Shown piece after piece: positions 11,676-22,617 of a stretch of DNA of 64,000 bases. This stretch comes from Hydrogenophaga pseudoflava (lineage in GTDB: Bacteria > Pseudomonadota > Gammaproteobacteria > Burkholderiales > Burkholderiaceae_C): assembly GCF_031020795.1 (NCBI RefSeq), contig NZ_JAVHJP010000006.1, positions 1 to 64,000 of the forward strand, given 5' to 3'. The notes under the pieces are model-generated. The model did not search any database. It saw only the letters and a list, made by a program, of their open reading frames with translations, and was not told the origin of the DNA. A program made the translations under genes and the position numbers. Position 1 is the first letter of the stretch; every line of letters starts with the position of its first letter.

Positions 11676-12212
11676 TTACGCGAGGCCGATTTCTGCCATG
11701 GAGCAGATCACGTCGCCAGCGACGATGAAATGGTCGAGCACCCGCACATCGACAAGCGCGGCCGCCTGCTTGATCGTCTGCGTCAGATGTTCGTCGGCCC
11801 GCGACGGACGGGCCTCGCCACTGGGGTGGTTGTGCACCAGGACCAGGGCGCTGCTGTTGCGCATCAGTGCATCGCGCACCACCTCACGCGGGTAGACCGA
11901 TGTCTGGCTCACCGTGCCCCGGAACATCTCGACGTAGTCCAGCACGCGGTTCTGCGAGTTCAGGTGCACCACGGCAAACACCTCATGCGGCAGGCTGCCC
12001 AGCCGGGCACGCAGAAAGTCCTTCACCACGGCGGGCGAGTCCATCAGGTCGCTGCCGCGCACCTGGGCGGCCAGCAACCGCTGCGCCGCCAGCAGCACCT
12101 CGTCGGCCTCGGCCGGCCGGTACTGGCCTGTGAGGTCGCGGATGAGAAAGCCTCCCGCCCCTGCGGGCACCGACAGGAGGGAATCGAGGGAAGAGAACAG
12201 ATCGTGCTGCAT
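11676..12212 (-). CDS. radC: RadC-family JAB/MPN domain protein
   Basis: A 178-aa RadC-like protein with the JAMM metalloprotease-type motif HNHPSGEARPSRAD (about residues 126-139), preceded by FAVVHLNSQNRVLDYVEMFRGTVSQTSVYPREVV. It is shorter than chromosomal RadC (about 220 aa) because it lacks the N-terminal helix-hairpin-helix part, as is usual for mobile-element copies. The start at 12212 has CCGGAGTT upstream. The biochemical role of RadC is unsettled despite its DNA-repair name. Confidence 0.85.
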   Translation of the reverse strand: MQHDLFSSLDSLLSVPAGAGGFLIRDLTGQYRPAEADEVLLAAQRLLAAQVRGSDLMDSPAVVKDFLRARLGSLPHEVFAVVHLNSQNRVLDYVEMFRGTVSQTSVYPREVVRDALMRNSSALVLVHNHPSGEARPSRADEHLTQTIKQAAALVDVRVLDHFIVAGDVICSMAEIGLA

Positions 12213-14632
12213 GACCAACTCCGGTGATCGGGCGGGATTGCCCGAGACCGGAACCGGCACACCGCAGCGCAGCGGTCACAGGTTCGAAGACGGCCGCAAG
12301 GCCGCCAGCGCCCACAGGGCGCGCAGACCTTGACGGCGAGAACGGTGTGCAAGGATGAAGGGAACAGCAAGCCAGCCCCACCACACCTGCAGGCGTGAGG
12401 CAGGCAAGCGCAGCGCGCAGGCCGGGGCATGCCCCCGGCCGGAGGCGTCAGCGATCGGCGCCCGACAGGGTCGAGACACCGGGACACGCGTGGCCTGGTG
12501 GCTTGATGCGCAGCACCAGAGCGCGGTCCGGCCGCGCCGGAGAGGCACAAAAAATCCCGGCTGAAGCCGGGATGTGGTGGTGCACGTCTGAACTTGTCGC
12601 TGTTCAAGTCGCCTGATGAGCGTCTGTCTCGTGCTCGCCCTGCCCTTCCACCACCTGAACAGGCTCGGTCAGCATCTGCGGCAGCCAGCCCGAGCCAGCG
12701 GCCAGCGGCCAGCCGTTCGGCCTCGGCGGTGATCTGGGTCTTCTTGAGCTTTGCAAGCCGTTGCACCTCACCCGGAGCGAAAACCTGCACCCCTTCCAAC
12801 GCCTTGGCCTTGGACACGTGGTCGAAGTAACCCGCTGCCGTGGGTGTCCACCAGCCGTGCATGTCCAGCCCCACCGCCTGTGCCAGCAGCGCGGCGGGTG
12901 CTTCGTCTTCGTGTTGAGCGAGGGCCGACACCGTCAGGCCCACACACAGGGCCAGCAGCGACAGCAGTTCTTCCTGTTCCATTGCCAGCAGTTCGGCAAA
13001 CAGGGCCTTTGGGTCCCCCGGCAACCGCGCTGCCCAGGCCTCGCGCACGGCGCGCAGGCCCTGCGAAGCCGGGGCCTCTGCAACGTCTGGAGCATGCTGC
13101 TCCAGCCGGTCCTGCGGTGTGGCGCTGATGTTGACCGGCGATGCACCGTAGCTACCCAGGATCACCCGCTGCGTCAACTGGTGCACCAAGGCGACCAGCG
13201 CGATGTTGGGATGACGGGCCACCTCGGCCTGCAGGGCGGCGGTGCGGTGCGCGCTCAAGCGCCGCACCAGCTTCTCTGACAGTCCGCCCCGGCTGGTGGG
13301 TGTTTCTGCTGACTCCACCTCGCCTTCTGCCTGTGCGTCCGTTGTCGGTCGATCCTGCGCTCGCAATGCCTTGACCTGTTCAACGCGCAACAGCCCGCGA
13401 TGCACCACCACAGCCCCCATGGGGTCCACCGACACCACCGCGCCGGCCATGGACACGACGCCGGGTTCGTACACCACCAGGGTCTGTTCGATGGCGTCCA
13501 GTTCATCGCCCAGCCGGTCCAGTTCTTCGTGCAGAGCCTGCGCACCGTCGTCGCTCAGGTCGTCGTCTTCGTCATCGAGTTTGTCCTGGAGCCGCGCCTG
13601 CTCCGCCTCCAGTTTCTCGATACGCTTGGCTTCCGCCTTGCTGGGTTCCCGGCGCGAGCGCCGCGCCCGCTGGAAGGTGTGCAGTTCGGACGAAGACACA
13701 CGCGGCGTGACATCCACCCAGCCCCAGCCTTCGACCCGCACCGACTCGGCCGCATCGGCCAGCCGGTCACGGGCCAGCCTCTCCAGCAAAGCGGCATCGG
13801 TGAGGAACACCCCCTTCTGCTCGTCCGCGAACAGGTCGCGCCGGATGCCACCGCCCGCCGCTTCGTAGGCCTCCACCCCCACGAATCGCGCGAGCGCGTC
13901 GCGGCAAGCATCCACCTCGTCGCGGGTCAGGTGGTCCCGCAGGGATTCCGGACTGCGCTGCCACTGTGGCACCTCATAGAAAGCCGACACCTGCGCTGCA
14001 TGGTCGTCGGTGATCGCCAGGGCCATCAACTGCTCCAGCGTGACCGCTCCCAGCTGGTAGTCCACCAGCAGCCGGGGTGCGACGTTGGCCAGCCGCAGCC
14101 GCCGGTTGACCACCAGCGGTGTGACTCCGAAGTCAGCAGCGATGTCTTCCAGCGACCGGCCTTCGGCCACCAGCGACTTCCAGGCAAACAGTTCGTCCAC
14201 CGGGGACATCGCCTCACGCTGCACGTTCTCGCTCAGGCTCACGGTGCGGGCCGAGGCATCGGGCACCAGCAGGCAAGGCACCGGATGGTCCTTCGCGAGT
14301 TTGTGGCGCTTGACCAGCAGCTTCAAGGCGGCCAGCCGCCGACGCCCGGCCACCACCTCGGACCACTGACCATCGGGCGTGGTGACGACGGTCAGGTTCT
14401 GCAGCAGACCCACGCGGGCGATGCTCGCTGCGAGTTCGGGAATGGCCGTGCCGCCGCTCTGGCGCACGTTGCGGCTGGAGGGCCGCAGCCGCGACAACGG
14501 GATCAGGTGCAGTTCGTAAGGTGCGACCTCTGGCACGGTGACAGATTCGGCTGCAACTGCCGACTCGCCAATGGTCGCAGCGACGGCCACGGCGCTCAAG
14601 GCCAGGGTTTCGGATTGGGTAACGGTGTTCAT
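12044..14632 (-). CDS. Large ParB-like protein with frameshifted 3' end
   Basis: As it stands the frame encodes 862 aa and runs through a terminator and into radC (same strand, other frame). Residues 1 to about 640 are a coherent element-type ParB protein: LIPLSRLRPSSRNVRQ, VVAGRRRLAAL, a helix-turn-helix near SLEDIAADFGVTPLVVNRRLRLANVAPR, and a coiled acidic segment. After AERLAAGRWL the sequence becomes Arg/Cys/Pro noise. At 12694-12713 the plus strand carries GCCAGCG in tandem. Removing one 7-bp unit gives SGWLPQMLTEPVQ and a stop at 12604, for a 673-aa protein, 30 bp before a perfect terminator. The native gene was therefore probably 12604-14632. Core ParB function may survive. The start at 14632 has an AGGAG site. 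Confidence 0.8.
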   Translation of the reverse strand: MNTVTQSETLALSAVAVAATIGESAVAAESVTVPEVAPYELHLIPLSRLRPSSRNVRQSGGTAIPELAASIARVGLLQNLTVVTTPDGQWSEVVAGRRRLAALKLLVKRHKLAKDHPVPCLLVPDASARTVSLSENVQREAMSPVDELFAWKSLVAEGRSLEDIAADFGVTPLVVNRRLRLANVAPRLLVDYQLGAVTLEQLMALAITDDHAAQVSAFYEVPQWQRSPESLRDHLTRDEVDACRDALARFVGVEAYEAAGGGIRRDLFADEQKGVFLTDAALLERLARDRLADAAESVRVEGWGWVDVTPRVSSSELHTFQRARRSRREPSKAEAKRIEKLEAEQARLQDKLDDEDDDLSDDGAQALHEELDRLGDELDAIEQTLVVYEPGVVSMAGAVVSVDPMGAVVVHRGLLRVEQVKALRAQDRPTTDAQAEGEVESAETPTSRGGLSEKLVRRLSAHRTAALQAEVARHPNIALVALVHQLTQRVILGSYGASPVNISATPQDRLEQHAPDVAEAPASQGLRAVREAWAARLPGDPKALFAELLAMEQEELLSLLALCVGLTVSALAQHEDEAPAALLAQAVGLDMHGWWTPTAAGYFDHVSKAKALEGVQVFAPGEVQRLAKLKKTQITAEAERLAAGRWLGLAAADADRACSGGGRAGRARDRRSSGDLNSDKFRRAPPHPGFSRDFLCLSGAAGPRSGAAHQATRPRVSRCLDPVGRRSLTPPAGGMPRPARCACLPHACRCGGAGLLFPSSLHTVLAVKVCAPCGRWRPCGRLRTCDRCAAVCRFRSRAIPPDHRSWSCSTICSLPSIPSCRCPQGREAFSSATSQASTGRPRPTRCCWRRSGCWPPRCAAAT
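12336..12413 (-). repeat. 78-bp direct repeat, copy A
   Basis: About 86% identical (11 mismatches, no gaps by eye) to 15042-15119, same orientation. It lies 124 bp upstream of the radC start. The best-conserved part is CAGCAAGCCAGCCCCACCAC. A shared promoter or activator site for minus-strand element genes is the simplest reading. Confidence 0.7.
12549..12573 (-). terminator. Rho-independent terminator of the ParB-like gene
   Basis: On the minus strand: ATCCCGGC, loop TTCA, GCCGGGAT, then TTTTTT. Perfect 8-bp stem with U-tract. It lies 30 bp after the reconstructed stop at 12604, which supports 12604 as the original gene end. Confidence 0.9.
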
Positions 14633-14932
14633 GTGAAATCTCCTGTCCCACACGGGGACCTTGTTCAAACAATGGAAGACATCGAAAAACAGAGGGGAAG
14701 TCAGTCGGCGTTGTGCATGGGCGCTCTCCTTGGGTGTTGGGCTCCGCAGGGGCCGCGAAGCCCTTCGCGGCCATGGGCAGCAGCTGGGGCCGGCGCGGGT
14801 GCGCCGTCAAGGGAGGAAGCGAAGGCGCTGGCGCGGCCCGCAGGCGCAGCCGAGGACACGGGCGCCGCAGCGGCCCTTGACGGGAGGAGCGCTCGCAGAG
14901 GCCAGGCAAGCCGGCGAAGCTGGCGCGCAGGT

Positions 14933-15327: not shown

Positions 15328-16371
15328 ATGAAAGTCGGTATCAACGGCATGGGCCGCATGGGGCGGCTGGCCCTGCGCGCGGCCTTCGGCGCCATCGAAC
15401 GCGAAGCCATCGACCCCCGCCAGGGCAACCGCCTGGAGGTGGTGCACCTCAACGAAATCAAGGGCGGCGCCGCGGCCACCGCCCACCTGCTGGCCTTTGA
15501 CACGGTGCAGGGCAAGTGGCGCGCCGACATCGCGGCCGAAGGCAGCGACGCCATCCGCATCGGCGACCGCCGCCTGTCGTTCAGCGAGCACGCCACCGCC
15601 GCCGAAATCCCCTGGGGCGATCTCGGCGTGGACGTGGTGCTGGAGTGCACCGGCAAGTTCCTCACACCCGAAACCCTGCAGGGCCACCTGGACCGCGGTG
15701 CCAAGCGCGTGATCGTGGCCGCACCAGTAAAGGTTGGTGGCGTGCTGAACATCGTGGTGGGCGTGAACGACCACCTTTACCAGCCGGCGCGCGACCACAT
15801 CGTCACCGCCGCCAGCTGCACCACCAATTGCCTGGCCCCGGTGGTCAAGGTGGTGCACGAAGCCATCGGCATCAGGCACGGCCAGATCACCACGCTGCAC
15901 AACCCGACCAACACCAACCTGGTGGTAGACGCGCCGCACAAAGACCTTCGCCGCGCCCGCAGCGCCATGGTCAACCTGGCCCCCACGACGACCGGCAGCG
16001 CCACCGCCATTGCGCTGATCTACCCCGAACTCAAGGGCAAGCTCAACGGCCACGCAGTGCGTGTCCCGGCGCTCAACGCCTCGCTGACCGACTGCGTGTT
16101 CGAGCTGAACCGCGTCACCACGGCCGAGGAAGTGAACGCGCTGTTCGAAGCCGCCGCCAGCGGCCCGCTGGCCGGCATCCTGGGCTACGAGAACCGCCCG
16201 CTGGTGAGCGCCGATTACGCCCGGGACACACGCAGTTCCATCGTCGACGGCCTCTCGACCATGGTGACCGACGGCACGCTGCTCAAGGTCTACGCCTGGT
16301 ACGACAACGAGATGGGCTACGCAACGCGCATGGTGGACTTGGCCTGCCACCTCGAATCCGTCGGCATCTGA
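15328..16371 (+). CDS. gapdh: ArsJ-associated glyceraldehyde-3-phosphate dehydrogenase
   Basis: A 347-aa GAPDH with the NAD-binding [16 protein letters not shown] at the N-terminus and the catalytic Cys in SCTTNC. Linked enzymes of this kind use arsenate in place of phosphate to make the unstable 1-arseno-3-phosphoglycerate, which ArsJ exports. The pair thus removes As(V) without reduction. Its stop overlaps the arsJ start by one base (TGATG), so the two are coupled. It is the first gene of the ars operon and lies directly behind the ArsR-type operator. A purely glycolytic role is unlikely given this context. Confidence 0.9.
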
Positions 16372-17642
16372 TGAACGCCGCCTCAACGACCACCGCCAGC
16401 CACGCGACGCGCAACTACGCCATCGTCACCGCCGCCTACTGGGGTTTCACGCTCACCGACGGCGCGCTGCGCATGCTGGTGCTGCTGCATTTCTACAAGC
16501 TGGGCTATTCGCCGTTCACGCTGTCTTTTCTGTTCCTGCTGTACGAAGCGGCCGGTGTGCTGGCCAACCTGATCGGTGGCTGGCTGGCCACGCGTTTCGG
16601 CATCCAGCGCATGCTGACCGTGGGCCTGGTCACGCAGATCACAGGATTCACCCTGCTCTCTCTGCTCAACCCGGCGTGGACGGCGGCGATGTCGGTGGCC
16701 TGGGTGGTGCTGGCGCAGGGCATCTGTGGCGTGGCCAAGGACCTGACCAAGACCGCCAGCAAGTCGGCCATCAAGGTCACGCAGGCGCAGGCCAAGGCCG
16801 AAGACAGTGGCAACAACCAGCTCTTCAAGTGGGTGGCCTGGTTCACCGGCAGCAAGAACGCCATGAAGGGCTTCGGCTTCTTCCTCGGTGGTGTGCTGCT
16901 GCAGGCGCTGGGCTTCCAGCACTCGCTCTGGGCCATGGCCAGTCTGCTGGTGCTGGTGCTCATCGGCGTGGTCTCGTCGGTGCCGCCGATGATGGGCAAG
17001 GCCAAGGCCTCCAAGTCGGCCAAGGAACTCTTCGCCAAGAACGCCGGCATCAACGGCTTGGCCGCCGCGCGCGTGGCGCTGTTCGGCGCGCGCGATGTGT
17101 GGTTCGTGGTGGGCGTGCCGGTGTTCCTGTATTCGCAGGGCTGGAACTTCACCATGGTCGGCGGCTTCCTGGCGGCCTGGACCATCGGCTACGGTCTGGT
17201 GCAGGCGCTTGCACCTAACCTTGTCAAACGCAGCCCCGACGGGCTGAGCAGCGAGGTGCCGGCGGCGCGCGGGTGGTCGCTGGTGCTGGCGCTGATCCCG
17301 GTTGGCATTGCTGCTGCCGTGCTGCTGGAGTTGCCGAACCTGCAGTGGTGGGTGGTCGGCGGGCTGGGGCTGTTCGGCTTTGCTTTCGCGGTCAACTCGT
17401 CGGTGCACTCCTACCTGATCCTGGCTTACGCCGGCAGCGAGAAAGCGGCCGAGGACGTGGGCTTCTACTACGCCGCCAATGCGCTGGGCCGTTTCTTCGG
17501 CACGCTGATGTCGGGCCTGCTCTACCAGTGGGGCGGCCTGCTGTACGCGCTGGTGGGCTCGGCCCTGATGCTCTTTACCTGCTGGCTGCTCACGCTGGCG
17601 CTGCCGACCAAGCTGGCTTTGCCGGCGCCCCAAACGACCTGA
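16371..17642 (+). CDS. arsJ: Organoarsenical efflux MFS permease ArsJ
   Basis: A 423-aa major-facilitator protein with about 11-12 hydrophobic segments. Near the N-terminus LTDGALRMLVLLHFYKLGYSPFTLSFLFLLYE is followed by ATRFGIQRML. ArsJ exports the arseno-phosphoglycerate made by the preceding GAPDH; the product falls apart outside into As(V) and 3-phosphoglycerate. Start and coupling are fixed by the TGATG overlap with the GAPDH gene. Confidence 0.92.
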   Translation: MNAASTTTASHATRNYAIVTAAYWGFTLTDGALRMLVLLHFYKLGYSPFTLSFLFLLYEAAGVLANLIGGWLATRFGIQRMLTVGLVTQITGFTLLSLLNPAWTAAMSVAWVVLAQGICGVAKDLTKTASKSAIKVTQAQAKAEDSGNNQLFKWVAWFTGSKNAMKGFGFFLGGVLLQALGFQHSLWAMASLLVLVLIGVVSSVPPMMGKAKASKSAKELFAKNAGINGLAAARVALFGARDVWFVVGVPVFLYSQGWNFTMVGGFLAAWTIGYGLVQALAPNLVKRSPDGLSSEVPAARGWSLVLALIPVGIAAAVLLELPNLQWWVVGGLGLFGFAFAVNSSVHSYLILAYAGSEKAAEDVGFYYAANALGRFFGTLMSGLLYQWGGLLYALVGSALMLFTCWLLTLALPTKLALPAPQTT

Positions 17643-17652
17643 GGAGACTGCC

Positions 17653-17988
17653 GTGGAAGAAGCTCAAGTTGTCAAAGCGCTGGCCGCGCTGGCACAAGAG
17701 ACGCGCCTGCGAATCTTTCGCCTGCTGGTGGTGGCCGGCGCCGACGGGCTGACCCCGGGATACATGTCGGAGGCGTTGGGCACACCGCCAAACGCCGTGT
17801 CTTTTCACCTGAAGGAGTTGAGCCACTCAGGCCTGATCGACGTCGAACGCGACGGTCGCAACTTGATCTACCGCGCCCAATTTGACCGCATGAACACGCT
17901 GCTCGGTTACTTGACCGAGCACTGCTGCGCAGGCCAGCCTTGTGAAATTGCTCCCTCGACCTGCACCGACTGCGGGGACCCGGCGTGA
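17653..17988 (+). CDS. arsR: ArsR-family arsenite-responsive repressor
   Basis: A 111-aa winged-helix repressor. The recognition region is PGYMSEALGTPPNAVSFHLKELSHSGLI. There is no CVC motif in the DNA-binding helix. Instead the C-terminus carries Cys 91, 92 and 97 (HCCAGQPC) plus Cys 104 and 107, an arrangement like the Acidithiobacillus-type ArsR that binds As(III) through C-terminal cysteines. It starts with GTG behind GAGGAG and overlaps the next gene by 4 nt (GTGA). It probably controls the operator at 15286-15303. Confidence 0.9.
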   Translation: MEEAQVVKALAALAQETRLRIFRLLVVAGADGLTPGYMSEALGTPPNAVSFHLKELSHSGLIDVERDGRNLIYRAQFDRMNTLLGYLTEHCCAGQPCEIAPSTCTDCGDPA

Positions 17989-19295
17989 ACCTGGCCGAAG
18001 CGCTGAACCTCGGCTGCGCCTGTCAGACGCTGGAGACAGCGCGTCTGCGAGAACAGCTGGAGACTGAGCCTGCACTGGCTGGTCTGACCATGCGTCTGGC
18101 CGACAGCCACCCACATCTGTTCTCGCGCACGGCGGTCTTCCTCGATGCCCGTGTGATGGCGCAGATCACTGACGCGGTGGCCGCGCTGGAGCGCGTGATC
18201 GCACGGCCCGCCTGGCAACAGCGGGCCCTGGACCGCGCTCCGCAGATTGCCGGTATTGCCCACGGACCCGCCGGAGTCTTCATGGGCTACGACTTCCACC
18301 TGGCCGACGACGGACCGCGCCTGATCGAGATCAACAGCAACGCAGGCGGCGCCTTCCTCAACGCCGCGCTGGCGCGGGCACACCGCGCTTGCTGCGAGTC
18401 GTTTCAGCAGGTGTTCGACCCACAGGACCGGTTGCGCAATCTCGACGAAGCCTTCGTCGCCATGTTCCGAGCCGAATGGCAATCGCAACGCGGCGATGCT
18501 CCGCTGCGCAATGTGGTGATCGTGGACGATGTGCCTGACGCGCAGTACCTGGCACCGGAGTTCCAGATGGCGCGCGCGCTGTTCGCAGCACACGGCCTGA
18601 TCGCCGTGGTAGCCGACCCGCGCGAGCTGCAGTGGCGCGATGGCGCGCTCTGGCACCCCGCCCTGCCCGCAGGCACGCCGGTGGACCTGGTCTACAACCG
18701 CCTGACCGACTTCTACCTGCAGGACAGTGGCCACGATGTGCTGCAACAGGCCTACCGGGCTGGCTCGGCCGTGGTCACGCCGCACCCCCGCACCCACGCG
18801 CTGTACGCCGACAAGCGCAACCTGGCCACCCTGTCCGACGCGGCGCTGCTCGAACACTGGGGCGTGGGCGAAGCGGACCGCGCCCTGCTGCGCCGGGTCG
18901 TGCCCGCGACACAGCGCGTCACCGCCGAAAACGCCGACGCGCTCTGGGCGCAGCGCCGAACCCTGTTCTTCAAACCTGCTGCCGGCTTCGGCGCCCGCGC
19001 TGCCTACCGCGGCGACAAGCTGACCCGACGGGTGTGGGACGAGATCCTGGCCGGCGATTACGTCGCCCAAACCACCGTGCCGCCCAGCGAGCGGCTGGTA
19101 CGTGTGGGTCACGAGACCATGCGGCTCAAGCTCGATCTGCGCGCCTACACCTACCGCGGCCAGATGCAGTTGCTGGCCGCACGCACCTGGTCGGGCCAGA
19201 CCACCAACTTCCGAACCGAAGGTGGCGGTTTCTCGCCAGTGGTGGTGCTGCCGGCCACAGCCTCATTCACTGACATTTCGCCCTCGCAACCCTGA
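17985..19295 (+). CDS. ATP-grasp-like protein of the ars operon, undescribed
   Basis: A 436-aa protein with no established arsenic function that I know of. Residues 96-127 (PAGVFMGYDFHL..LIEINSNAGGA) look like the Mg-binding strand of ATP-grasp ligases. Residues 326-343 (TLFFKPAAGFGARAAYRG) look like the nucleotide-binding Lys-Pro/Gly loop, and AYTYRGQ (387-393) follows. The EIN motif precedes the KP motif, which is the order of circularly permuted ATP-grasp proteins such as glutathionylspermidine synthase. Expected chemistry is ATP-dependent amide or peptide bond formation. The gene overlaps arsR by 4 nt (GTGA) and precedes the arsI-like gene, so it belongs to the ars transcript. A role in making a thiol peptide or modifying an arsenical is inference. 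Confidence 0.6.
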   Translation: MNLAEALNLGCACQTLETARLREQLETEPALAGLTMRLADSHPHLFSRTAVFLDARVMAQITDAVAALERVIARPAWQQRALDRAPQIAGIAHGPAGVFMGYDFHLADDGPRLIEINSNAGGAFLNAALARAHRACCESFQQVFDPQDRLRNLDEAFVAMFRAEWQSQRGDAPLRNVVIVDDVPDAQYLAPEFQMARALFAAHGLIAVVADPRELQWRDGALWHPALPAGTPVDLVYNRLTDFYLQDSGHDVLQQAYRAGSAVVTPHPRTHALYADKRNLATLSDAALLEHWGVGEADRALLRRVVPATQRVTAENADALWAQRRTLFFKPAAGFGARAAYRGDKLTRRVWDEILAGDYVAQTTVPPSERLVRVGHETMRLKLDLRAYTYRGQMQLLAARTWSGQTTNFRTEGGGFSPVVVLPATASFTDISPSQP

Positions 19296-19307
19296 ACGGT
19301 GACCCCG

Positions 19308-19862
19308 ATGAAACGTTTCCACGTCCACCTCCACGTCAACGACCTGGACAAGAGCATTGGCTTCTACTCCGCCCTGTTCAACCAGGCCCCCACCCGCACC
19401 GAGGCCGACTACGCCAAGTGGATGCTGGAAGACCCGCCGGTGAACTTCGCCATCTCCACACGGGGTGAGCAGCCGGGCATCGACCATCTGGGCATCCAGA
19501 CCGACAACGCTGAAGAACTGCAGGCCCTGAAGGACCGCGCCACGGCCGCCGACATCAGCTTGCTGGACGAAGGCGCCACCACCTGCTGCTACGCCCGCAG
19601 CGAAAAGCACTGGATCACCGATCCGCAGGGCATCGCCTGGGAACACTTCCATACGCTGGGCAACATCCCGGTGTTCCGCGAGAAGGCGGACGAGGCCTCG
19701 GCGGTGGCCTGCTGTGCACCCAGCGGTGCGCCCGCCACCCACTGCTGTACACCCGCCGCCGAAGCGGCCGGGTGCTGCTCGCCCACCCTCCCCGCTGCCG
19801 CAGGCGCCCGTTGTGCGCTCTCATCCCCCTCCTCCGCCTCCTCCTCAACCAGCTGCTGCTGA
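19308..19862 (+). CDS. arsI: ArsI/CadI-type dioxygenase with Cys-rich tail
   Basis: A 184-aa vicinal-oxygen-chelate protein (start MKRFHVHLHV; an in-frame GTG lies 9 nt upstream). His 5, His 60 and Glu 112 match the Fe(II) ligands, and Cys 93-Cys 94 match the vicinal pair that binds trivalent arsenic in ArsI C-As lyases. ArsI cleaves the C-As bond of methyl- or aromatic As(III), releasing As(III). From about residue 135 the protein adds a tail with four CC pairs (ACCAPSG, HCCTPA, GCCSP, TSCC), absent from short ArsI proteins. The tail may hold or pass on arsenite. CadI-like metal binding without lyase activity is the alternative. Confidence 0.75.
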   Translation: MKRFHVHLHVNDLDKSIGFYSALFNQAPTRTEADYAKWMLEDPPVNFAISTRGEQPGIDHLGIQTDNAEELQALKDRATAADISLLDEGATTCCYARSEKHWITDPQGIAWEHFHTLGNIPVFREKADEASAVACCAPSGAPATHCCTPAAEAAGCCSPTLPAAAGARCALSSPSSASSSTSCC

Positions 19863-19874
19863 AAGGTTTTCACC

Positions 19875-20369
19875 ATGTCCGTCTACAACGTGCTCTTTCT
19901 GTGCACTGGCAACTCGGCTCGAAGCATCATGGCCGAATCCATCCTCAACCATCTGGGCGGTGGCCGGTTCCGGGCCTTCAGCGCCGGTAGCCACCCGGCT
20001 GGCCAGGTGAATCCGCACGCCATCGAACTGCTGCAACGCAACCACTACAAGACGGACAGTCTGCGCAGCAAGAACTGGAGCGAGTTCGCGCAAGCCGATG
20101 CGCCACACATGAACTTCGTGCTCACCGTCTGCGACAAGGCCGCCGGAGAGGTGTGCCCTGTGTGGCCGGGCCAGCCGATGTCGGCGCACTGGGGCGTGCC
20201 CGATCCTGCCGAAGTCAAGGGTGATGATGAAGCGGCGAAGAAGGCCTTCGCCGACACCTTCATGGTGCTCAGCCGCCGCATCGCGCTGATGGTGAACCTG
20301 CCGTTTGAAAAACTCGACCGGCTGGCCCTGCAGAAGGAACTGGTGGACATCGGACGGCAAAAGGCCTGA
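19875..20369 (+). CDS. arsC: Arsenate reductase ArsC, LMW-phosphatase type
   Basis: A 164-aa reductase with the phosphatase loop FLCTGNSARS (Cys 10, Arg 16), further Cys 86 and Cys 94, and Asp-Pro at 110-111 as general acid. It reduces As(V) to As(III), with disulfide relay to thioredoxin. It follows the arsI-like gene by 12 bp. A strong terminator lies between it and acr3. A second, unrelated ArsC is encoded at 21468-21890. Confidence 0.9.
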   Translation: MSVYNVLFLCTGNSARSIMAESILNHLGGGRFRAFSAGSHPAGQVNPHAIELLQRNHYKTDSLRSKNWSEFAQADAPHMNFVLTVCDKAAGEVCPVWPGQPMSAHWGVPDPAEVKGDDEAAKKAFADTFMVLSRRIALMVNLPFEKLDRLALQKELVDIGRQKA

Positions 20370-20437: not shown

Positions 20438-21451
20438 ATGGGTGTGTTTGAGCGTTATCTGACCGTCTGGGTCGGTCTGGGCATTCTGGCCGGTGTGGGC
20501 CTTGGGCTGGTGATGCCCGGCGTGTTCCAGGCCGTGGCCGCGATGGAGATCGCGCAGGTCAACCTGGTGGTCGCCGTGTTCATCTGGATCATGATTTACC
20601 CCATGATGATCCAGATCGACTGGCACGCCGTGAAGGACGTGGGCAAGCGGCCGCAGGGCCTGCTGCTCACGCTGGTGGTGAACTGGCTGATCAAGCCCTT
20701 CACCATGGCGGCGCTGGGCGTGCTGTTCTTCCAGTACGTGTTTGCTTACTGGGTCGATCCGCAATCGGCGAGCGAGTACATCGCCGGCATGATCCTGCTG
20801 GGCGTGGCGCCCTGCACCGCCATGGTGTTCGTCTGGAGCCAACTGGTGAAAGGCGACGCCAACTACACCCTGGTGCAGGTTTCGGTGAACGACCTGATCA
20901 TGGTGGTGGCGTTCGCCCCCATCGCCGCCTTCCTGCTCGGCGTGACCAACGTGACCGTGCCCTGGGAGACGCTGCTGCTGTCCACCGTGCTCTATGTGGT
21001 CTTGCCGCTGCTGGCGGGCATGGCCACGCGCCAGGTGCTGGTGAAACGTTCTTCGTCTGCACTGGGTCAGTTCGTGGCGCGCCTCAAGCCCTGGTCGGTG
21101 GTCGGCCTGATCGCCACGGTGGTGCTGCTGTTTGGCTTCCAGGCCGGCACCATCGTCGAAAAGCCTGGCGTGATCGCGCTGATCGCGGTGCCGCTGATCC
21201 TGCAGTCGTATGGCATCTTTTTCATCACCTGGTGGGGCGCCAAGTGGCTCAAGCTGCCGCACGACATCGCCGGACCGGCCTGCCTGATCGGCACCTCGAA
21301 CTTCTTCGAGCTGGCCGTGGCGGTGGCGATTTCGCTGTTCGGCCTGAACTCGGGCGCCGCGCTGGCCACCGTGGTCGGCGTGCTGGTCGAGGTGCCCGTG
21401 ATGCTCTCGCTCGTGGCCATCGTCAACGCCTGGCGCCCCCGGACCGCCTGA
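20438..21451 (+). CDS. acr3: Arsenite efflux permease Acr3
   Basis: A 337-aa membrane protein with about 10 hydrophobic segments and the Acr3 signature [15 protein letters not shown] with its conserved Cys in a mid-membrane helix. It expels As(III), the product of both ArsC enzymes, using the proton gradient. It lies behind the arsC terminator with its own GGGAGA ribosome site and is followed within 20 bp by the second arsC. Often also named arsB in annotations, though unrelated to ArsB. Confidence 0.92.
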
Positions 21452-21467: not shown

Positions 21468-21890
21468 ATGCCCGACATCACGATCTATCACAACCCGGCC
21501 TGCGGCACCTCGCGCAACGTGCTGGCCATGATCCGCAACAGCGGCGTGGAACCCACGGTCATCGAGTACCTCAAGCACCCGCCCAGCATGCAGCAGATCC
21601 AGGCATGGCTGAGCACCATGGGCGCCACGGTGCGCCAGGTGCTGCGTGAAAAAGGCACACCTTTCGCCGAGCTGGACCTAGGCAACCCGAAATGGACCGA
21701 TGAACAGCTGCTGGCCTTCATCCAGCAGCACCCCATCCTGCTCAACCGCCCCTTCGTGGTCACGCCGCTGGGGGTGCGCCTGTGCCGCCCTTCCGAGGTC
21801 GTTCTCGACATCCTGCCCTATCCGCAGCAGGGCCCTTTCATCAAGGAAGATGGTGAGGTCGTCATTGATGCAAAAGGTCGCCGTGTCTAA
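21468..21890 (+). CDS. arsC: Arsenate reductase ArsC, glutaredoxin-dependent type
   Basis: A 140-aa protein of the ArsC/Spx fold. [10 protein letters not shown] places the catalytic Cys at residue 12. Arg 60, Arg 94 and Arg 107 sit at the same positions as in the E. coli plasmid R773 enzyme. It reduces As(V) using glutathione and glutaredoxin, so the operon encodes two independent reductases with different electron donors. Its end overlaps the arsH start. Confidence 0.92.
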
Positions 21891-22617
21891 GTCCGTTTCC
21901 AAACCCCTGGCCGATCTGCCGCAAGTGCAGGCCGAACATTTCCGTGTGCCCGATCCGTCGCGGCTGTTGCGTCCGCACTCGGCCCATCCTCCGCGCATCC
22001 TGCTGCTGTACGGATCGCTGCGCCCGCGCTCCTTCAGCCGCTTGCTGGTGGAGGAAGCTGCACGGTTGCTGCAGGCCATGGGTGCGGAGACCCGCATCTT
22101 CAACCCCAGCGGCCTGCCCCTGCCCGACGACGCGCCGGAAACCCATCCCAAGGTGCAGGAGCTGCGCGAGCTGACCCTGTGGTCGGAAGGCATGGTCTGG
22201 TGTTCGCCCGAACGCCACGGCGCCATGACCGGCATCATGAAAGCCCAGATCGACTGGATTCCCCTGGCGGCCGGCGCCGTGCGCCCCACCCAGGGCAAGA
22301 CGCTGGCGGTGATGCAGGTCTGTGGCGGCTCGCAATCGTTCAACGCGGTCAACCAGATGCGCGTGCTCGGGCGCTGGATGCGCATGATCACCATCCCGAA
22401 CCAGTCGTCGGTGGCCAAGGCGTTTCAGGAGTTCGACGACCAAGACCGCATGAAGCCGTCGAGTTACCACGACCGGGTGGTCGATGTGATGGAAGAACTG
22501 GTCAAGTTCACCTGGCTCACCCGCGACGTCTCGCCCTACCTGGTGGACCGCTACAGCGAGCGCAAGGAAAGCGCCGAAGAACTCATGCGGCGGGTCAACC
22601 TGCCCAAGGCGGTGTGA
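21868..22617 (+). CDS. arsH: NADPH-dependent FMN reductase ArsH
   Basis: A 249-aa flavodoxin-fold protein with the FMN-binding [15 protein letters not shown] and [21 protein letters not shown]. ArsH oxidises trivalent methylated or aromatic arsenicals to less toxic pentavalent forms. The ATG at 21868 overlaps the upstream arsC by 23 nt; a GTG at 21883 with AAAAGG upstream is an equally plausible start. With the ArsI-like protein it suggests exposure to organoarsenicals. Confidence 0.9.

Follow-up and report, generated by a model that had tools for sequence, protein, structure and literature searches.

The 64,000-nt stretch of a Hydrogenophaga pseudoflava contig analyzed here (NZ_JAVHJP010000006.1, positions 1 to 64,000; the window) carries an arsenic resistance (ars) operon in which one gene, termed X, encodes a protein of 436 amino acid residues. 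Based on its fold, its invariant motifs, its position in the operon, its recurrent metal contexts and the distribution of GshA and GshB, X is probably an ArsR-controlled, permuted ligase of the glutathione-synthetase type whose product would be a thiol peptide, available both to bind As(III) and to serve the glutaredoxin-type ArsC. Glutathione is a metal-binding thiol, and the thiol supply for ars operons is normally left to housekeeping genes; if the assignment is correct, the ars operon gains a thiol-synthesis step.

The reading frame of X is open throughout and shares four nucleotides (GTGA) with the end of arsR, and the open reading frame (ORF) of an ArsI/CadI-type protein starts 3 nt after it; the initial annotation had described both the 4-nt overlap and an arsI-like gene next in line. 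The genes of the array are co-directional, in the order GAPDH-arsJ-arsR-X-arsI-arsC (low molecular weight, LMW)-acr3-arsC (glutaredoxin)-arsH, and X, lying inside, is an ars operon gene by position. Its neighbors were identified as ars genes with NCBIfam and Pfam, and every gene of the array except X and the LMW arsC passed its NCBIfam cut-off (Table 1). A second copy of X (88% identical) was found in the same genome, arranged arsR-X-arsC-acr3.

The AlphaFold model of X (pLDDT 91.7) gave a circularly permuted ATP-grasp fold over the full length, which, together with the order of the motifs, upheld the earlier proposal of such a fold. The nearest folds were those of YgiC/YjfC, the (homo)glutathione synthetases and glutathionylspermidine synthetase, with glutathione and homoglutathione synthetases at the top of the Foldseek list. 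The eukaryotic-type glutathione and homoglutathione synthetases (2hgs, 1m0w, 3kal, 5oes) share the full-length permuted fold with X, but identity is 10–13% and there is no Pfam match to X at E ≤ 1 (PF03917). When X was compared by hand with potato glutathione synthetase, the ExN, YxR, KP...YG, Q and RT...GG motifs were found in identical order, and the RTxGGG loop of X resembles the RT...EGG loop of the plant enzyme. E. coli YgiC/YjfC and glutathionylspermidine synthetase (7uka, 7uk6, 2io9) showed 9–13% identity and stood lower in the Foldseek list. The likeness to glutathionylspermidine synthase suggested by the initial annotation thus holds for the fold but not for the sequence family: PF03738 gave no Pfam match at E ≤ 1 and an hhalign probability of 2.6, and the 436 residues leave no space for an amidase domain. 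The NCBIfam search with X returned nothing at E ≤ 0.1, and bacterial GshB (TIGR01380) was therefore unmatched. CP_ATPgrasp_2 (PF14403) is permuted like X, but X scored below its cut-off (E 0.0036, 16.7 bits, cut-off 32), although an hhalign probability of 93.5 across 188 columns was obtained with the X profile; the two genes of the same genome that exceed the PF14403 cut-off both lie elsewhere. A phmmer search of PDB sequences with X gave no match. The sole match of profile A2, the window-type profile, among solved structures was a purine repressor fragment at 0.47, which was rejected, and the match of the profile of a distant clade of X to 3n6x, a putative glutathionylspermidine synthase, was too weak by itself (0.04).

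The residues D103, H105, E115, N117, K330 and P331 were invariant in all 123 aligned relatives; the EIN and KP motifs thus lie where they had been placed before, and the ExN metal motif precedes the KP nucleotide loop. Within the RTxGGG loop, R410, G413, G414 and G415 were conserved in 119, 121, 108 and 123 of the 123 rows, respectively. The metal role of the GYDFH...EIN residues is presumably the one known from glutathione and glutathionylspermidine synthetases. A cysteine quartet (C11, C13, C136 and C137), which is extra in the metal-locus proteins relative to the eukaryotic-type synthetases, was complete in 100 of the 108 rows outside the distant clade and in none of the 15 rows within it. 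By genomic context, it was complete in 33/33 ars, 12/12 copper, 13/13 asnO and 10/11 moeA rows. Judged from sequence, the quartet may bind metal.

The X family is large and unannotated. The relatives sample comprised 60 genomes, 16 of which (own genome counted) carried X; the class sample had X in 12 of 274 genomes and the phylum sample, by profile search, in 128 of 398. X was also present in 32 of 72,556 plasmid records, each at <60% identity, and at least 588 relatives were confirmed when genome contigs were scanned with a pattern. In agreement with the earlier remark that X lacks a family name, 30 of the 32 plasmid records name its product as a hypothetical or conserved hypothetical protein, and the other two list no feature for it. 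The surroundings of X were surveyed in 127 loci, some of which end at contig ends, with marker proteins taken from the window and the loci (minimum identity 30%, raised to 35% or 38% for a few markers, with 45% of the marker length covered). As 80 of the genome loci are the best 80 of the at least 588 relatives, the share of ars loci is skewed to the clade of the window. An ars marker was observed within 6 kb of X in 37 of the 127 loci, two or more in 29, and a copper marker within 6 kb in 13 loci without CueR, or 17 with CueR counted. Within 2.5 kb, asnO was found in 13 loci, moeA in 12 and one particular MFS gene in 11. An arsR-like gene lay at most 100 bp upstream on the same strand in 17 loci, including the window; in one of these (L181), the arsR-like protein was just 34% identical. 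The ars markers were concentrated near X, on 46/232 flank sides at 0–3 kb and on 7/210 and 5/110 farther away. The claim that X is locked to arsenic was not sustained: most of the surveyed homologs lie outside arsenic loci, an outcome that the initial annotation had named as refuting. The same spread bears on the idea that X joins an organoarsenical, for example a product of the ArsI/ArsJ/ArsH branch, to an amino acid: X lies between arsR and arsI, and arsJ and arsH are in the operon, but copper, mercury and other loci with no ars genes nearby also carry X with its invariant motifs, and such a role is scarcely credible.

Among the 18 of the 32 plasmid regions that were read, 12 contained copper-named genes and none contained ars-named genes. 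The remaining six had a heavy-metal ATPase with asnO (one), RND genes (two), a CDF gene (one), a DUF305 hint alone (one) and mer genes (one). The last of these, pMR68 of Pseudomonas sp. K-62 (L241, 514–7143), carries merA, merF and an alkylmercury lyase gene in the X region, with merA and the lyase gene upstream of X; the gene directly upstream of X is named ‘flavoprotein’. In a quick LG+G4 tree of X, which gave long-branch warnings and from which rows L073, L110, L162 and L175 were omitted, the contexts fell into clades, but the supported branches imply that the ars label was gained or lost at least nine times and the copper label at least six times, so the metal association changed repeatedly. 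If the function proposed here is correct, one enzyme family serves arsenic, copper and perhaps mercury resistance. In the distant clade, an MFS_1_like transporter gene was found at most 340 bp upstream of X, measured between match ends, in 11 of 15 loci (L151–L160 and L166), and this transporter possibly exports or imports the X product. Apparent transporter-X fusions in L154 and L160 were judged by eye to be long ORFs arising from out-of-frame ORF calling and were rejected.

The strongest clue to the function of X is the distribution of GshA and GshB. In the 398-genome sample, profile score and family together set apart 112 genomes with a ‘distant’ X, 15 of which are represented in the tree and the cysteine count. 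All 112 lie outside the class of the window and are, by inference, probably Alphaproteobacteria. GshB (TIGR01380) over the cut-off was found in none of them, GshF-type enzymes not having been searched for, and in 258 of the 286 remaining genomes; GshA was found in 101 of the 112, 100 via PF04107 and one more via PF08886. The distributions of X and bacterial GshB are thus complementary in the distant clade, and the overall reaction is probably alike. Two complete genomes nearer to the window (G055 and G059) also had X and GshA, with no TIGR01380 match and no gshB remnant around gshA, unlike G141 and G145, in which gshB lies directly 3' of gshA. The X proteins of G055 and G059 are without the cysteine quartet. 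The G055 protein groups with nine further moeA-type rows, each of which has the quartet, in a clade that is supported as a whole but less firmly in its inner branches, and GshB over the cut-off was present in seven of the eight moeA-type genomes checked, one of the eight (L106) lying outside this clade. As GshA occurs without GshB in X genomes, the product of X is probably glutathione or a close analogue, and in about 100 sampled genomes with gshA and without over-cut-off gshB, X is a candidate for the missing step. Glutathione or an arsenical, the substrates proposed in the initial annotation, are possible, but the GshA-without-GshB genomes and the leaders of the Foldseek list favor gamma-glutamylcysteine.

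In 13 of the 127 loci, X lies directly before, and adjoins, a gene for a NAGGN-type amidotransferase (AsnO). Two X-adjacent AsnO proteins scored 977 and 988 bits against TIGR03104 (cut-off 570). The two genes overlap by 1–7 nt in 12 of the 13 loci (L051, L056, L057, L060, L061, L062, L065, L069, L071, L072, L077 and L113), and in the 13th (L081, 2992–5322), they form one open frame of 776 aa in which AsnO is without its usual MCGI start, which may reflect a deletion or an assembly fault. Ngg (TIGR03103, cut-off 569) over the cut-off was found in none of the 10 asnO-X genomes tested. As asnO abuts X and Ngg does not pass its cut-off, X may be the ligase whose product AsnO amidates, and the pair is a possible new amidated-peptide pathway. 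According to PMC8877833, glutathione amide occurs in some purple bacteria; a passage of PMC4213376 reports it as undetected in A. vinosum, and the portions of these two sources consulted name no enzyme for it. The abutting genes, the TIGR03104 score of 977 bits and the sub-threshold ngg in 10/10 genomes could also indicate a NAGGN-like osmolyte or small-peptide ligase, which would replace Ngg beside AsnO and, in ars and copper loci, make a non-thiol peptide or modify a protein tail. This is decidedly improbable: the AsnO pairing is found mostly in one clade and on a metal plasmid (in pPNAP02, the X-amidotransferase pair adjoins heavy-metal genes), and the ars, copper and mercury contexts and the GshB pattern indicate thiols.

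Several results weigh against X as a synthetase of glutathione or a close analogue in metal resistance. At the sequence level, the link to glutathione synthetases is thin: profile A2 and the bacterial eukaryotic-type glutathione synthetases were unaligned (hhalign probability 1), and the alignment came from the distant clade alone (probability 80, E 1.4e-5, with a template of two sequences). Sub-threshold TIGR01380 matches of about 1e-57 were observed in five of the 112 distant-X genomes (G336, at full length, G361, G413, G428 and G432) and may be diverged GshB, the best match in the other 107 being none better than 5e-21. Distant-X genomes and GshB genomes belong to different families throughout, so the pattern may be one old event. 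GshA occurred without a found X in 13 genomes of families lacking over-cut-off GshB (G394, G435, G454, G459, G479, G482, G487, G490, G525, G534, G570, G573 and G593), of which 10 are <90% complete and three (G394, G435 and G482) are not. Sub-threshold TIGR03103 matches were present in all 10 asnO-X genomes (best 206 bits against 569), and copper markers were not densest near X (8/232, 12/210 and 2/110 flank sides). Moreover, of the 16 genomes in the 398-genome sample with a non-distant X, 14 have GshB over the cut-off, and the same holds, beside the quartet-type X, for 44 of 50 genomes of loci from the pattern scan (misses: G720, G738 with a split match, G740, G750, G757 and G759), or 42 of 46 once L064, L073, L079 and L108, with the quartet incomplete or unaligned, were dropped. 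X in quartet-type genomes, which already have GshB, need not make plain glutathione. Because of this GshB, finished glutathione is available to the quartet-type X, which might join an amine or amino acid to it in a glutathionylspermidine-synthase-like or extended-glutathione reaction, close to what the initial annotation had envisaged; the charged or longer thiol would hold As(III) or Cu(I) better. The best fold matches of X include GspS, YgiC and YjfC, and YgiC/YjfC are termed peptidylpolyamine synthetases in an excerpt of PMC12568646. We consider this unlikely, since it leaves GshA without over-cut-off GshB unexplained (in most of the 112 genomes, G055 and G059), an AsnO next to X points to a free carboxylate on the product, and PF03738 is unmatched.

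In the synthetase reaction preferred here, X would be an ADP-forming ligase: a substrate of the gamma-glutamylcysteine type would be phosphorylated by ATP at its C-terminal carboxylate, and glycine or another small amino acid of this kind would attack the resulting acyl phosphate through its amine, yielding glutathione or a close analogue. The X of the window would be co-produced with the ars operon under ArsR, so that arsenic would switch on extra thiol, which would serve both as a ligand of As(III) and as a supply for the glutaredoxin-type ArsC encoded in that operon. Copper loci, as well as at least one mercury locus, have acquired this type of enzyme too, and a thiol that binds Cu(I) or Hg(II) would be useful there; in a Rhodoferax-like clade, an AsnO-type partner probably amidates the X product. 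More tentatively, and with somewhat less than even confidence, X may represent a separate bacterial class of synthetases of glutathione or its analogues. In this view, GshB would have given way to the Cys-poor form in many species beyond the class of the window and, independently, in two lineages closer to the window; the Cys-quartet form would have become a mobile metal-response enzyme of arsenic, copper and mercury loci; and X paired with AsnO would produce a thiol peptide with an amidated C-terminus, similar to glutathione amide. Among the matches listed in the open-access literature, no description of an X-type ligase was found; the single ATP-grasp mentions in PMC6016940 and PMC10092412 are in table rows on other organisms.

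Table 1. Genes of the ars array and motifs of X, with positions in the window.
Feature	Position	Strand	Basis or remark
ArsJ-associated GAPDH gene	15328..16371	+	NF033735, 538 bits (cut-off 450)
arsJ	16371..17642 (exact start not settled)	+	NF033734, 516 bits (cut-off 400)
arsR	17653..17988	+	NF033788 (ArsR/SmtB), 62 bits (cut-off 55); 4-nt overlap with X
X, predicted permuted ATP-grasp ligase of glutathione-synthetase type	17985..19295	+	GTG start, 436 aa
CxC, residues 11–13, half of Cys quartet	18015..18023	+	alignment
GYDFH...EIN, predicted Mg/ATP site, residues 101–117	18285..18335	+	N-terminal to KP loop (permuted order)
CC, residues 136–137, second half of Cys quartet	18390..18395	+	alignment
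KP nucleotide loop, residues 330–331	18972..18977	+	identical in 123/123 rows
RTxGGG loop, residues 410–415	19212..19229	+	row conservation and hand comparison with potato glutathione synthetase
ArsI/CadI-type VOC protein gene	19299..19862	+	NF041414, 137 bits (cut-off 116)
LMW-phosphatase-type arsC	19875..20369	+	PF01451 (LMWPc), 66 bits, passes; TIGR02691, 64 bits, under cut-off 174
acr3	20438..21451	+	TIGR00832, 411 bits (cut-off 283)
Glutaredoxin (glutathione)-dependent arsC	21468..21890	+	TIGR00014, 135 bits (cut-off 106)
arsH	21859..22617 (start approximate)	+	TIGR02690, 410 bits (cut-off 292)

The window also contains a long ORF at 12044–14668 on the minus strand, the start of which, by eye, we take to resemble a ParB-type protein; this is a hint that the ars array lies on a mobile element. 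In G055, a second, N-terminally truncated copy of X (L175), 59% identical over residues 192–423, was observed in a repeat-bearing stretch.
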